Shown here piece after piece: positions 5,405 to 9,476 of a DNA stretch of 42,055 nt (positions are counted from its first letter, which is position 1; the number at the start of each line of letters is the position of its first letter). The DNA is taken from contig JAAYNE010000102.1 of NCBI GenBank assembly GCA_012521015.1, positions 1 through 42,055 on the forward strand, read 5' to 3'. The position numbers and the translations under genes were made by a program. The notes below the pieces were generated by a model. That model saw only the letters and a program-made list of their open reading frames with translations. It was not told the origin of the DNA and searched no databases. Source of the DNA: Clostridiaceae bacterium (lineage in GTDB: Bacteria > Bacillota > Clostridia > Saccharofermentanales > DTU023).

Positions 5405-6481
5405 ATGAAAAAAGTAATTATTCGAAAAGGAGCTTTTTTGCTATTAGCTCTGATTATTCTGTTTTCTATTTCCGCTTGTGTCGATAAGTCGAAGCCGGAA
5501 AAACAAGATAAGTCTCTGGCGAGCAAAGTTGCGCTTGAAACCAAAGGTAAATCGGATAACAACCCACAGAATCAGGATCCTTCTGAATCTCAAGTTCAGG
5601 AATCAGGTGCGACAACGACAAAGCAGGATCCTTCCGAATCTCAAGTGCAGGAATCAGGCACGACAATGACAAAACCGGATGCCAAAGATGAGCCACTGGA
5701 ATTCGCTGTGAACAGCGATGAAGAGCAAGGTATTACTTTTGCCCGGCTGCAACCCGGGATAATATATGAGGACGAAATGGCGAAAATCAGCGTAGACGGA
5801 ATGGAGACGGTACAAGGCTACGGTTACCCGAAAATCTTGTTCAGCTTGGAAAATAAAAGCGATTTGACTCTTAATTTTTCAGACGATTATGTGATCGTCA
5901 ACGGAATAGTCCTTAACCTAAACATTTCCGATAGCATCGTGGATCCCCGCACCACAAATCAGGCTATCCTGGAATTAACTACATACGAATTGGAAAAGGC
6001 CCAAATTACCCATATCTCATCTGTCAAAATTGAGATGACCCTTGTTGACAATGAGACATGGGAAGATATTTATCCACTTCCCAGACTGACTGTTTCGTTT
6101 AAAGAAGATGAGGGAACTATCAAACCACAGAAGGAAGAGCGAGTACTGGCAGACAATGAGGAGGTGCGGATAACCCTGATCAAAACCGTACAGATTGAAG
6201 ATGGCATTATCTGCGATATGTTTGTTGAAAATAAAGGTAGTGAAGAAATCTCCGCTTCGGTTTCCGATTTTGTTCTTAATGGGGTCGAGATAGGGGGTTA
6301 TGGCTTCTATGCGGATATTCCCGTTGATTGTAAGGGAATCTTAGAAATCTACTTAAGTAGCATTCAGCTGAAAGACAATTATCACATTGACACTATGAAA
6401 GATTTTAGCGTTACGGTTGAGCTGACCAGCGATTCCAAACCAGATTATACGTTCATTGATGATTTACCGGTTTACCCGTAA
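5405..6481 (+). CDS. lipoprotein with two Ig-like domains
   Basis: This is a 358-residue surface lipoprotein of unknown function. The signal peptide (about residues 1-24) ends in the lipobox SISAC, making Cys25 the lipidated residue. A low-complexity linker (about 30-95) contains a repeated QDPSESQVQESG element. Two similar beta-sandwich-like domains follow (about 105-235 and 240-355). Each carries the pattern of hydrophobic strands around ENKS/ENKG and a VNG/LNG strand seen in clostridial Ig-like domains of secreted proteins. The ribosome binding site AAAGGAG lies just before ATG. It is the first of three consecutive lipoprotein genes with similar linkers, which suggests a shared extracellular role. 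The domain reading is by eye and the function is not known. Confidence 0.75.
   Translation: MKKVIIRKGAFLLLALIILFSISACVDKSKPEKQDKSLASKVALETKGKSDNNPQNQDPSESQVQESGATTTKQDPSESQVQESGTTMTKPDAKDEPLEFAVNSDEEQGITFARLQPGIIYEDEMAKISVDGMETVQGYGYPKILFSLENKSDLTLNFSDDYVIVNGIVLNLNISDSIVDPRTTNQAILELTTYELEKAQITHISSVKIEMTLVDNETWEDIYPLPRLTVSFKEDEGTIKPQKEERVLADNEEVRITLIKTVQIEDGIICDMFVENKGSEEISASVSDFVLNGVEIGGYGFYADIPVDCKGILEIYLSSIQLKDNYHIDTMKDFSVTVELTSDSKPDYTFIDDLPVYP
5573..5674 (+). repeat. 51-bp tandem duplication in the lipoprotein linker
   Basis: Two in-frame 51-base copies begin at 5573 and 5624 and differ at only a few positions. They encode QDPSESQVQESG followed by a Thr-rich stretch, lengthening the linker between lipid anchor and domains. 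Confidence 0.85.
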
Positions 6482-6641
6482 AAAACTATATAGATCAAGG
6501 CGGTCCGGTCCGCCCTCTGAATTGGATGTAATTTACGACACTGACACATACATACTACTGTTTTCCAAGTATCAATGTCGATATTAAAGAATCTACTGTA
6601 AGTAAAAGAAATGCAATTCATTGATTAAAGAGGTATTAAAA

Positions 6642-7490
6642 ATGAAGGATATAAACAGAAATATAAAATATAAGTTGCTGAGTTTCGCGTTGGCATTACT
6701 GCTGGTATTGGTTTCCTCGGCCTGTGGCAGAAAAAATGAAAACAGTTCATTATCGATAATAGACAGTACTGAGAAAACAGAGCCTGTAATCATTGCGAAT
6801 CCAACTACCCCAACAAGTTCGAATATAACTACTACGACAAGTTCTATTATAGCCACAACAACCCCGATTATAACATCTGAGACAAGTCAGATTATAACTA
6901 CCACAACAACAAGCCCGATAACTACCTCTGTAACCAGTTCAGATATAACCACTGCAACGAGTTCGGCTGCGCCTACTGCAACAAGTTCGAATACAAATAT
7001 CGAGATTGATTTGAACGCACCGGCCGACGAACCACCATTATTTAACTGGGCGTGTGGATCGTATTCGATCATGTTATATGATGAGTGGTTTTATGATGAA
7101 GAAACCAGTGGTGATACGCATGATCGTTTTATTCCGGAAGGTGATGACCGCCAAGGAATTATGATCGAAAACATTCCGATTCCGCTGGTTGATTTCTCTG
7201 AGGTTTATCAGGAATATGTCGATGCGTGGCTGGAGGGCGACTGGGCAACGGGTTCCGATCTTATTTTCGCAGGAGATGCCCATTATGACGCATTTCCAGG
7301 TGCGTTGACGCTTACTTATGATATTTATAACGGATCCGAAATAATCGCCGATATGATTATTATTGCAATCCAGGGAAATCACGCCGATACATTTGCACTT
7401 ATATACTGGGAAGAAATTGAACATGAGGGTGTGCCTTCCTACTACTATCAGGCGATGCGGATTTTTGAATCTTTTACCTTGTTAAACTGA
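6642..7490 (+). CDS. lipoprotein with Ser/Thr-rich linker and PsbP-like domain
   Basis: This is a predicted surface lipoprotein of 282 residues. The signal peptide ends in VSSAC, so Cys28 would be lipidated. A Thr/Ser-rich linker (about 45-120) consists of loose repeats of the type ITTTTSS. The C-terminal domain (about 130-282) begins FNWACGSYSIMLYDEWF and ends AMRIFESFTLL. This layout resembles the PsbP/DUF1795-like fold found in many clostridial lipoproteins; that assignment is tentative. The frame opens at a TTG (6621), but AAAGAGG at 6627-6633 is 8 bases before ATG 6642, so that start was taken. It lies between the Ig-like lipoprotein and the OppA-like lipoprotein, all on the plus strand. 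Confidence 0.75.
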   Translation: MKDINRNIKYKLLSFALALLLVLVSSACGRKNENSSLSIIDSTEKTEPVIIANPTTPTSSNITTTTSSIIATTTPIITSETSQIITTTTTSPITTSVTSSDITTATSSAAPTATSSNTNIEIDLNAPADEPPLFNWACGSYSIMLYDEWFYDEETSGDTHDRFIPEGDDRQGIMIENIPIPLVDFSEVYQEYVDAWLEGDWATGSDLIFAGDAHYDAFPGALTLTYDIYNGSEIIADMIIIAIQGNHADTFALIYWEEIEHEGVPSYYYQAMRIFESFTLLN

Positions 7491-7535: not shown

Positions 7536-9476
7536 ATGGAAAAATCAACAAAATTACTTGCTATGCTTTTGATCTTGGTAATGGCCGTTGGTCTGTTTAC
7601 CGCTTGCGGATCTAAAGAGACGAAAACGAAGAATAAAACAACTAAAGTATCTGCTGAGCAATCAGATACAGAGCAGACTGATACGACAAATATAGAAAGT
7701 AAAATAACAAAATCCCATCTTAAGCATACTAATGCAGCGGCTGTAGACGAAACAAACGTTAAAACTAAGCCGGAGCAAACAGATACACTTAAAACAACGG
7801 ATGCTCTGAAATCAACAGATACACCGAAAGCATCGGATGCTTCGAAAACAACAGATGCGCCAATAGAAACGGATACATCGGATAAAACTGAAGATCCGGA
7901 ATCTGAACAAGAAGTCCTCGCAAATGGAGTTGTTGCCATCGACTGGGCTCCATATAACAATCTTATTGCTGATATTAAAGCTGAGACTGATCCGGTTGTG
8001 CGTGAACATCTGATGCATCAAGCGGAGGATATGCTGATGGAAACAGGCATATTTGCTCCACTTACTAATATCAATAACTTCTATCTGATGAAAGATCATG
8101 TAGAAGGTGTATATGCGACGCTTTCCGGTGGGAAGTATTTTATGTTTGCAAGCAATGGAGATGCTGAATCTTTACGTATTAATCTTACGGGTGAACCGGC
8201 TCGTCTTGATCCTGTACTAAATCATTCGATTGATGGTTTGATTTTAGCACTGAACTCTTTTTCCGGTCTTTATACTTATGATAAAAACGGTGAATTGGTG
8301 CCGGATTTGGCGGAAGGTGTTGAGATTTCAAAAGATGAATTAACTTATACTTTTACACTTAAACCTAATCTGAAATGGTCTGACAGCAGTGAACTTACCG
8401 CCGCCGATTTCGAATGGTCATGGAAACGTGCAGCCACCACCTGTGATGCCCTTGCTCTGAATGTTATCGAAGGTTATCCGGATAAACTGAATGTTAAAGC
8501 GTCTGATGACGGAAGGACTTTGGCTGTAGTTCTGGATACACCGAACGCATACTTCTTGAATATAATATGCGAATCAGCATATCTGCCGGTACATCAGGCA
8601 ACTGTAGAAGGTACTGAGGGCTATAAAGATACTGAGGGTAAGATCCTCGATGCCGGTGCCTGGGCGCTGGAATCCGGTTTCATCTCGAACGGTGCATTCA
8701 CGCTTGCAGAGTGGAAACACAATGAAAGTATGAAATATGTCAAAAATCCGAACTACCATCGTGCTGACGAAGTAACACTGGAATCACTCGAATATATTCT
8801 GAATGAAAATGCAGATGCTGTCCTGACGATGTACGATGCCGGTGAGCTGGACTTCGCCAACAGGGTGCCACGTTCTGAAATACCGGATCTGATCGGGCGA
8901 CCTGATTTATATGAGGTTGAGAGTTTAACTATCGATTTCATTATTTTTAACGAAAAGTCCAAAATTTTTGCAGGCAAAACCGTACAGCAGGCGAAAGACA
9001 TAAGGCAAGCACTCTCACTCTTGATTGATCGTGAATCAATTTTTATGTCAGGTGAGGGAACAGGACAAGAGATTGCAACCTCTTTTGTTCCGGCGAGTAT
9101 GTCTGACGGACACGGTGGTATCTTTAAAACAAATGATGAAGACTATACTTATCCGGTGGGAGATGGTTACTTTACGACAGGTATGGATGAAGCGAAAGCC
9201 ATTGAACTGCTCGAGGGGGCAGGATATGTCTTTGAAGGCGGTGTGCTTTCTGCGGATACGCCACTACGTTTTGAATTTCTGACAGCCGCTAAAGGGTCAG
9301 TGACTGATGACTTGCAACAGGGCTTTGCCCAGTACGGTATCACGATGGATATCCGGCAGGTTGCCTGGAATGTCTTTCTCAATGAATTTGAAACAGATAA
9401 CTATGATGTAGCCCGCACTACTTGGATTGCGCCATTCAATGATCCGATCAACATGCTTGAGATAAATCATGATTAA
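7536..9476 (+). CDS. oligopeptide-binding lipoprotein, apparently circularly permuted
   Basis: This protein resembles the peptide-binding lipoprotein of Opp/Dpp ABC importers (SBP_bac_5 family). The signal peptide ends LFTAC (Cys24) and a Thr/Asp/Lys-rich linker runs to about 125. Residues 132-207 then read like the normal C-terminal end of an OppA protein (PYNNLIADIKAETD, LMHQAEDMLMETG, then FYLMKDHVEGVYATLSGGKY). The usual N-terminal start of the domain follows only at about 211 (LRINLTGEPARLDP, then YTFTLKPNLKWSDS). The main domain continues to WIAPFNDPINML at about 636 and stops at 646, exactly where the displaced segment would be expected. No Opp permease or ATPase genes are adjacent, so it may be a sensor or scavenger. 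The family is clear; the permutation is inferred from motif order. Confidence 0.85.
   Translation: MEKSTKLLAMLLILVMAVGLFTACGSKETKTKNKTTKVSAEQSDTEQTDTTNIESKITKSHLKHTNAAAVDETNVKTKPEQTDTLKTTDALKSTDTPKASDASKTTDAPIETDTSDKTEDPESEQEVLANGVVAIDWAPYNNLIADIKAETDPVVREHLMHQAEDMLMETGIFAPLTNINNFYLMKDHVEGVYATLSGGKYFMFASNGDAESLRINLTGEPARLDPVLNHSIDGLILALNSFSGLYTYDKNGELVPDLAEGVEISKDELTYTFTLKPNLKWSDSSELTAADFEWSWKRAATTCDALALNVIEGYPDKLNVKASDDGRTLAVVLDTPNAYFLNIICESAYLPVHQATVEGTEGYKDTEGKILDAGAWALESGFISNGAFTLAEWKHNESMKYVKNPNYHRADEVTLESLEYILNENADAVLTMYDAGELDFANRVPRSEIPDLIGRPDLYEVESLTIDFIIFNEKSKIFAGKTVQQAKDIRQALSLLIDRESIFMSGEGTGQEIATSFVPASMSDGHGGIFKTNDEDYTYPVGDGYFTTGMDEAKAIELLEGAGYVFEGGVLSADTPLRFEFLTAAKGSVTDDLQQGFAQYGITMDIRQVAWNVFLNEFETDNYDVARTTWIAPFNDPINMLEINHD

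Follow-up and report, generated by a model that had tools for sequence, protein, structure and literature searches.

A circularly permuted OppA-like lipoprotein gene in a Clostridiaceae bacterium and its relatives in opp operons

Introduction

The window, a 42,055-nucleotide stretch of contig from a Clostridiaceae bacterium, raises the question of whether a binding protein of the OppA family can carry its segments in rotated order, and whether such a protein is an accident of one genome or the product of a wider history. Few binding proteins have been studied as thoroughly as those of the OppA type, and all the solved OppA-type structures compared here share one chain order. A first-pass annotation of the window had proposed that in one lipoprotein gene the segment that normally closes the protein stands ahead of the remainder. 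Combined sequence, structural, and genomic context analyses assign the window protein, with a probability of roughly 0.9, to a widespread permuted OppA clade (SBP_bac_5, cluster C). Intact members of this clade are encoded in opp operons, whose binding proteins they would be. Rotation in the OppA family as a whole has at least five origins, and the window copy has become an orphan secondarily.

Segment order in the window protein

Features of the window gene are listed in Table 1. The Pfam model PF00496 (SBP_bac_5) matched window residues 253-642 with 201.6 bits, against a cut-off of 32.4. Using phmmer, residues 211-645 aligned to chain positions 20-441 of Bacillus subtilis OppA (8are_A, 138 bits), and residues 140-203 gave a separate match to positions 457-520 of the same chain with only 4.4 bits; against DppE (8ay0_A) this second piece scored 16.4 bits, which is weak by itself. 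The decisive comparison was made with a profile of 32 rows comprised of canonical OppA relatives only. Residues 128-209 fall on columns 471-538 of this profile (43.8 bits), and columns 38-455 are matched by residues 206-645 (290.8 bits). Aligned separately, the body and the displaced segment each matched the OppA family, as had been predicted for residues 132-207 as the family's C-terminal end and for a body that starts only after them. The displaced segment is real and the order in the window protein is rotated. Each remaining segment occurs once, with no duplicated columns, while columns 456-470 are lost; in the closest relative (genome G016) columns 470-539 are followed by columns 38-469.

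Table 1. Parts of the permuted gene in the window, with positions and supporting evidence.
Feature	Position	Strand	Basis
Permuted OppA-like lipoprotein gene, 646 aa	7536..9476	+	ORF list, Pfam, canonical profile
Lipobox-bearing (FTAC) signal peptide, then a Thr/Lys/Asp/Glu-rich linker of ~100 residues	7536..7910	+	
Displaced OppA C-terminal segment, residues 128-209 (profile columns 471-538)	7917..8162	+	43.8 bits; phmmer
Junction of old C-terminus (KYFMFA) and old N-terminal strand (LRINLT), few residues between	8151..8175	+	
OppA remainder, residues 206-645 (profile columns 38-455)	8151..9470	+	290.8 bits; Pfam
Pro codon cca (within IAPFNDP), profile column 445, equivalent to Asp419 of Salmonella enterica OppA	9432..9434	+	
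Divergent, truncated end INHD-stop; relatives have MWTTxSGNNDAQFGR there	9459..9476	+	

The anticipated lipobox and long linker were also found, the latter being a low-complexity stretch, and the G016 relative has a shorter, dissimilar leader of 35 residues. The protein had further been said to end where the displaced segment belongs; this was only partly right, as the family cut lies ~14 residues farther on, after SGNNDxQFGR, and the window copy is truncated. There is no NCBIfam model specific to permuted OppA, and matches to the general OppA models were sub-threshold. Standard annotation hides the permutation because domain models hit only the larger piece, so that the protein is listed as an ordinary binding protein.

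Occurrence of the rotated order in other genomes

Homologues with the same order are present in many independent genomes. Relatives from other genera of the host's family share the order at 45-65% identity, the same-genus genome G004 also has it, and a junction profile matched in 12 of 38 genomes of the family. A scan of public genomes yielded 583 relatives, the best 80 of which all matched across the junction. Cut sites were assigned by mapping every ORF to the canonical profile, with the exception of locus L068, for which the order was read by eye. In 79 of these best 80 of 583 loci the cut lies at columns 469|470 (type A), and the remaining locus is of type C (see below). The same 80 loci belong to Bacillota (75), Spirochaetota (3), and Chloroflexota (2) and include the cultured isolates Treponema bryantii XBD1002 and Blautia caecimuris DSM 29492; being the best of 583, they carry no statement on prevalence. 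When 398 genomes were drawn evenly from the phylum, the full junction was found at a strict cut-off only in the host and in G228 (type D). Five listed matches in phage records all start past the displaced segment, so that none of them is shown to be permuted.

These data bear directly on the possibility that two oppA fragments were misjoined during assembly, or that genes were fused, and that no permuted protein exists. The draft assembly has 156 contigs, the window being one of them, and the window gene is truncated and without an operon, as such an error might leave it. Against this, dozens of unrelated assemblies have the identical order and junction with no duplicated columns, among them those of the two isolates as well as G004. 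An assembly artefact was rejected for the window junction because the same order recurs across independent genomes, and the probability left to a misjoin or fusion is negligible. Circular permutation, as originally proposed, is thus supported by the canonical profile, by the same-order homologues, and by the confident fold described next.

Predicted fold, position of the cut, and membrane tether

The permuted core of the window protein was modelled with AlphaFold2 from an alignment of 52 permuted rows, yielding a pLDDT of 93.5 and a pTM of 0.89; confidence over most of the displaced segment was about 92-97. Foldseek and VIA-align both placed OppA, MppA, and DppE among the top matches. Against OppA 8are_A the model gave a VIA Z score of 28.0 over 398 residues at 2.5 A, both aligners being sequential and VIA leaving out model residues 1-82. 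The core is confidently predicted to fold as a bilobed OppA; residues 1-82 of the model would sit in lobe I, a placement that rests on the confidence values and not on the superposition. A type C protein, modelled from an alignment with a canonical bridge, reached a middling pLDDT of 73.8 and pTM of 0.71, and its first 400 residues matched OppA at Z 18-21, which is supportive but weak.

In S. enterica OppA, domain I comprises residues 1-44, 169-270, and 487-517, domain II residues 45-168, and domain III residues 271-486. Structural mapping on 1ola put the type A cut near OppA residue 438-450 and the type C cut near 125, which by these limits places the former in domain III and the latter in domain II. 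In type A proteins the chain is therefore cut in the third domain, just past SGNNDxQFGR, the last ~70 residues come first, and a very short junction leads into the old N-terminus. Since the signal peptide or lipid anchor now attaches at the cut, the tether may enter from the lobe with domain III and not from lobe I. Approximately 12 type A proteins in the set, after FALCAC-like lipoboxes missed by the pattern were set aside, have a plain signal peptide and no lipobox, which weakens the tether argument. Lipobox-less permuted OppA proteins of Bacillota include those at L002, L003, L056, L058, L062, L086, L096, and L109, and others.

Operon context of the permuted relatives

The order oppB-C-D-F-permuted oppA was found in five of five host-family relatives examined. 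Within the best 80 of 583 public loci, 62 have oppB, C, D, and F all within 8 kb on the same strand, 10 have one to three opp genes, for the most part where a contig ends, and no opp gene is present in the other eight. Nearly all intact type A relatives are accordingly encoded together with oppBCDF. With these four genes nearby in 62 of the 80 loci, permuted OppA would be the regular binding protein of an opp operon that is widespread. The first-pass annotation had described an orphan permuted protein with no adjacent permease; this holds for the window copy and fails for its relatives, and it misses both an ancestral permutation in an oppBCDF operon elsewhere and the degeneracy of the window copy. 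Intact type A members are encoded at the end of an oppB-C-D-F-A operon; the proteins most likely adopt the ordinary OppA fold, bind peptides, and hand them to OppBCDF. In most of the nearest canonical relatives the genes likewise run B-C-D-F-A, the oppA being unpermuted, and for this reason the rotation most likely happened in place within the operon.

Several proteins carry permuted OppA in larger architectures. A 1320-aa protein from an Anaerolineaceae MAG (L068, 5631-9593) contains two permuted OppA modules in tandem with low-complexity linkers. In a Lachnospiraceae MAG (L120, 5223-8441), a Ser/Thr protein kinase with one transmembrane segment was seen by eye to have a permuted OppA outer domain, and this fusion is likely a peptide sensor. 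A permuted OppA in a Clostridia MAG (L131, 4564-6450) has an N-terminal dockerin-like repeat (GDVNGDGDRGADDARLAL / ADTNGNGVIEASDARLIL), also recognized by eye.

Independent origins of permuted OppA

Cuts at other positions were also detected. Type B (378|379) is represented by one family of the same order (f3), located near oppBCDF on the opposite strand. Type C (148|154) was found in an Oscillospiraceae MAG (L127) and again in an assembly of a Subdoligranulum variabile strain (L223), with oppBCDF upstream. Type D is cut at 304 (G228) and type E at 306|307 (G177), the G178 copy of the latter being broken by stops. Forms B-E, like type A, also occur beside opp genes.

A binding protein tree built from re-ordered columns required six changes between canonical and permuted order, and a single clade of all permuted rows was rejected (AU p=0.0005). 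Union of the main type A clade with the pair L125/L130 (A2) was not rejected (p=0.215), and the count is therefore given as at least five events rather than six. A tree of concatenated OppBCDF, which involves no re-ordering of columns, gave the same placements: type A formed one clade with a support of 100, types D and C were nested among canonical operons, and types B and E stood apart. Rotated OppA arose at least five times independently, at four or five cut sites. It is somewhat probable that rotation is a recurrent and tolerated move of OppA, its cuts falling in domains II and III, its products standing beside opp genes, and the resulting move of the membrane tether away from lobe I, to the opposite lobe, being open to selection.

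A more economical history would have one permutation for the main type A clade together with L125 and L130, and a reversion in the canonical clade nested between them. The two permuted groups do share a cut site, their union was tolerated by the tree test, and the intervening canonical clade has an insert of ~25 residues exactly at the cut. Nevertheless, A2 adjoins canonical sequences in both trees and the inserts bear no likeness to linker remnants, making reversion rather unlikely. The members of the canonical clade nearest the permuted proteins in which the insert lies precisely at the type A cut site are L008-L012, L016, and L145.

Route of permutation

Two main routes to circular permutation are described, duplication or fission and fusion (PMC3320104). 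The permuted oppA probably arose by tandem duplication, fusion, and subsequent loss of the outer ends, and the earlier proposal of recombination between tandem oppA copies is plausible. Locus L117 is a tandem pair of permuted genes and L068 encodes a fused tandem protein, indicating that duplication, giving tandem and fused copies, is at work in the permuted group. No half-way form in canonical order, either tandem or fused canonical oppA, was found. Simple duplication of the segment, as distinct from permutation, was rejected: no leftover second C-terminal segment was detected in the 1.5 kb flanks of permuted genes, the tandem locus L117 excepted. This lack of second-copy remnants would also suit fission and fusion, in which a split gene was rejoined in the other order; that route is considered unlikely, given that none of the relatives showed a split oppA and that L117 and L068 reveal tandem duplication and fusion of oppA in the permuted group. 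Permutation by duplication has been invoked as one route for saposin/swaposin and for DNA methyltransferases (PMC3320104). Permuted OppA differs from these in having no canonical-order intermediate, only tandem or fused copies that are already permuted.

Comparison with known systems

The window protein is alike in family and predicted fold (Z 27-28) to OppA/SBP_bac_5 proteins such as B. subtilis OppA (8are), S. enterica OppA (1ola), and Escherichia coli MppA (3o9p), and its intact permuted relatives further share the oppBCDF neighbourhood and the Asp that binds the peptide amine. In contrast to canonical OppA, the permuted form has the last ~70 residues before the first strand and new termini in domain III, and the window copy has neither the peptide-amine Asp nor the operon.

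No report of permuted OppA was found in the literature searched, and one precedent exists in another cluster. TpMglB-2 (Tp0684) of Treponema pallidum is a natural circularly permuted glucose-binding protein of cluster B; its kind is reported to occur in treponemes and Gram-positive bacteria, and its authors suggest an adaptation to tethering (PMC4990184). Both cases are natural circular permutations of an ABC-importer binding protein and mostly concern tethered proteins, whereas TpMglB-2 belongs to cluster B, binds sugar, and has a type I fold and another cut. It is described as one permuted family, compared with at least five independent events in the OppA family. The presence of permuted OppA in the same kinds of bacteria fits the tethering idea; the lipobox-less type A proteins do not agree with it.

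The permuted clade would serve peptide importers in gut Lachnospiraceae and Oscillospiraceae and in treponemes. Together with the repeated rotations it offers a natural experiment on chain order, tether position, and fold, and a tether shift from lobe I to the other lobe, if true, would be a selectable change in the contact between protein and permease. Furthermore, the permutation-by-duplication model becomes testable, as the cut sites are known along with the canonical sister genes and the operon setting.

The window copy as a degenerate orphan

Of 105 near-invariant columns the window copy is changed at 30, the median for the family being 2. It also lacks ~14 C-terminal residues and has an end branch of 0.70 in the binding protein tree compared with 0.12 for its sister. 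Profile column 445 holds Asp in G016, in 64 of the 67 permuted type A rows that have a residue at this position, and in 44 of 46 canonical rows; it is Pro in the window and G004 copies. In the OppA of Gram-negative bacteria and of Borrelia, this Asp (Asp419 in S. enterica) binds the amine of the peptide (PMC5736914). No oppBCDF genes accompany the permuted gene in the window, and no close OppB or OppF that would mark a cognate operon was detected in the host genome, which is 89.5% complete so that an opp operon could be missing from it. The G004 orthologue (L026, 2214-3332) has an in-frame internal deletion of ~240 residues, leaving 372 aa, and is still open. Between the window gene and this orthologue dN/dS is lower in the displaced segment (0.2) than overall (about 0.36). 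From these values, which apply to the conserved parts, some constraint remains, and the gene need not be dying.

Having lost its operon, the strip at its C-terminus, and the Asp that anchors the amine, the window copy probably no longer serves peptide import. It may be a relic that is slowly being lost, or else a lipoprotein repurposed for a different task. Continued function as a peptide-binding lipoprotein, with the permease encoded elsewhere, would account for the open frame, lipobox, confident fold, and dN/dS well below 1, and the host does have one other dpp/opp-like operon (contig C137). That operon is distant (OppB 31%, OppF 41% identity), both copies have Pro in place of the anchoring Asp, and the losses from the window and G004 proteins remove the C-terminal strip and ~240 internal residues, respectively; retained peptide binding is accordingly improbable. 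Directly upstream of the permuted gene and in the same orientation lie two lipoprotein genes (window 5405-6481 and 6621-7490) without a clear Pfam family, one of which encodes a Thr/Ser-rich linker. The trio formed by these two genes and the binding protein gene is kept in G004, where the binding protein gene is the shrunken one.
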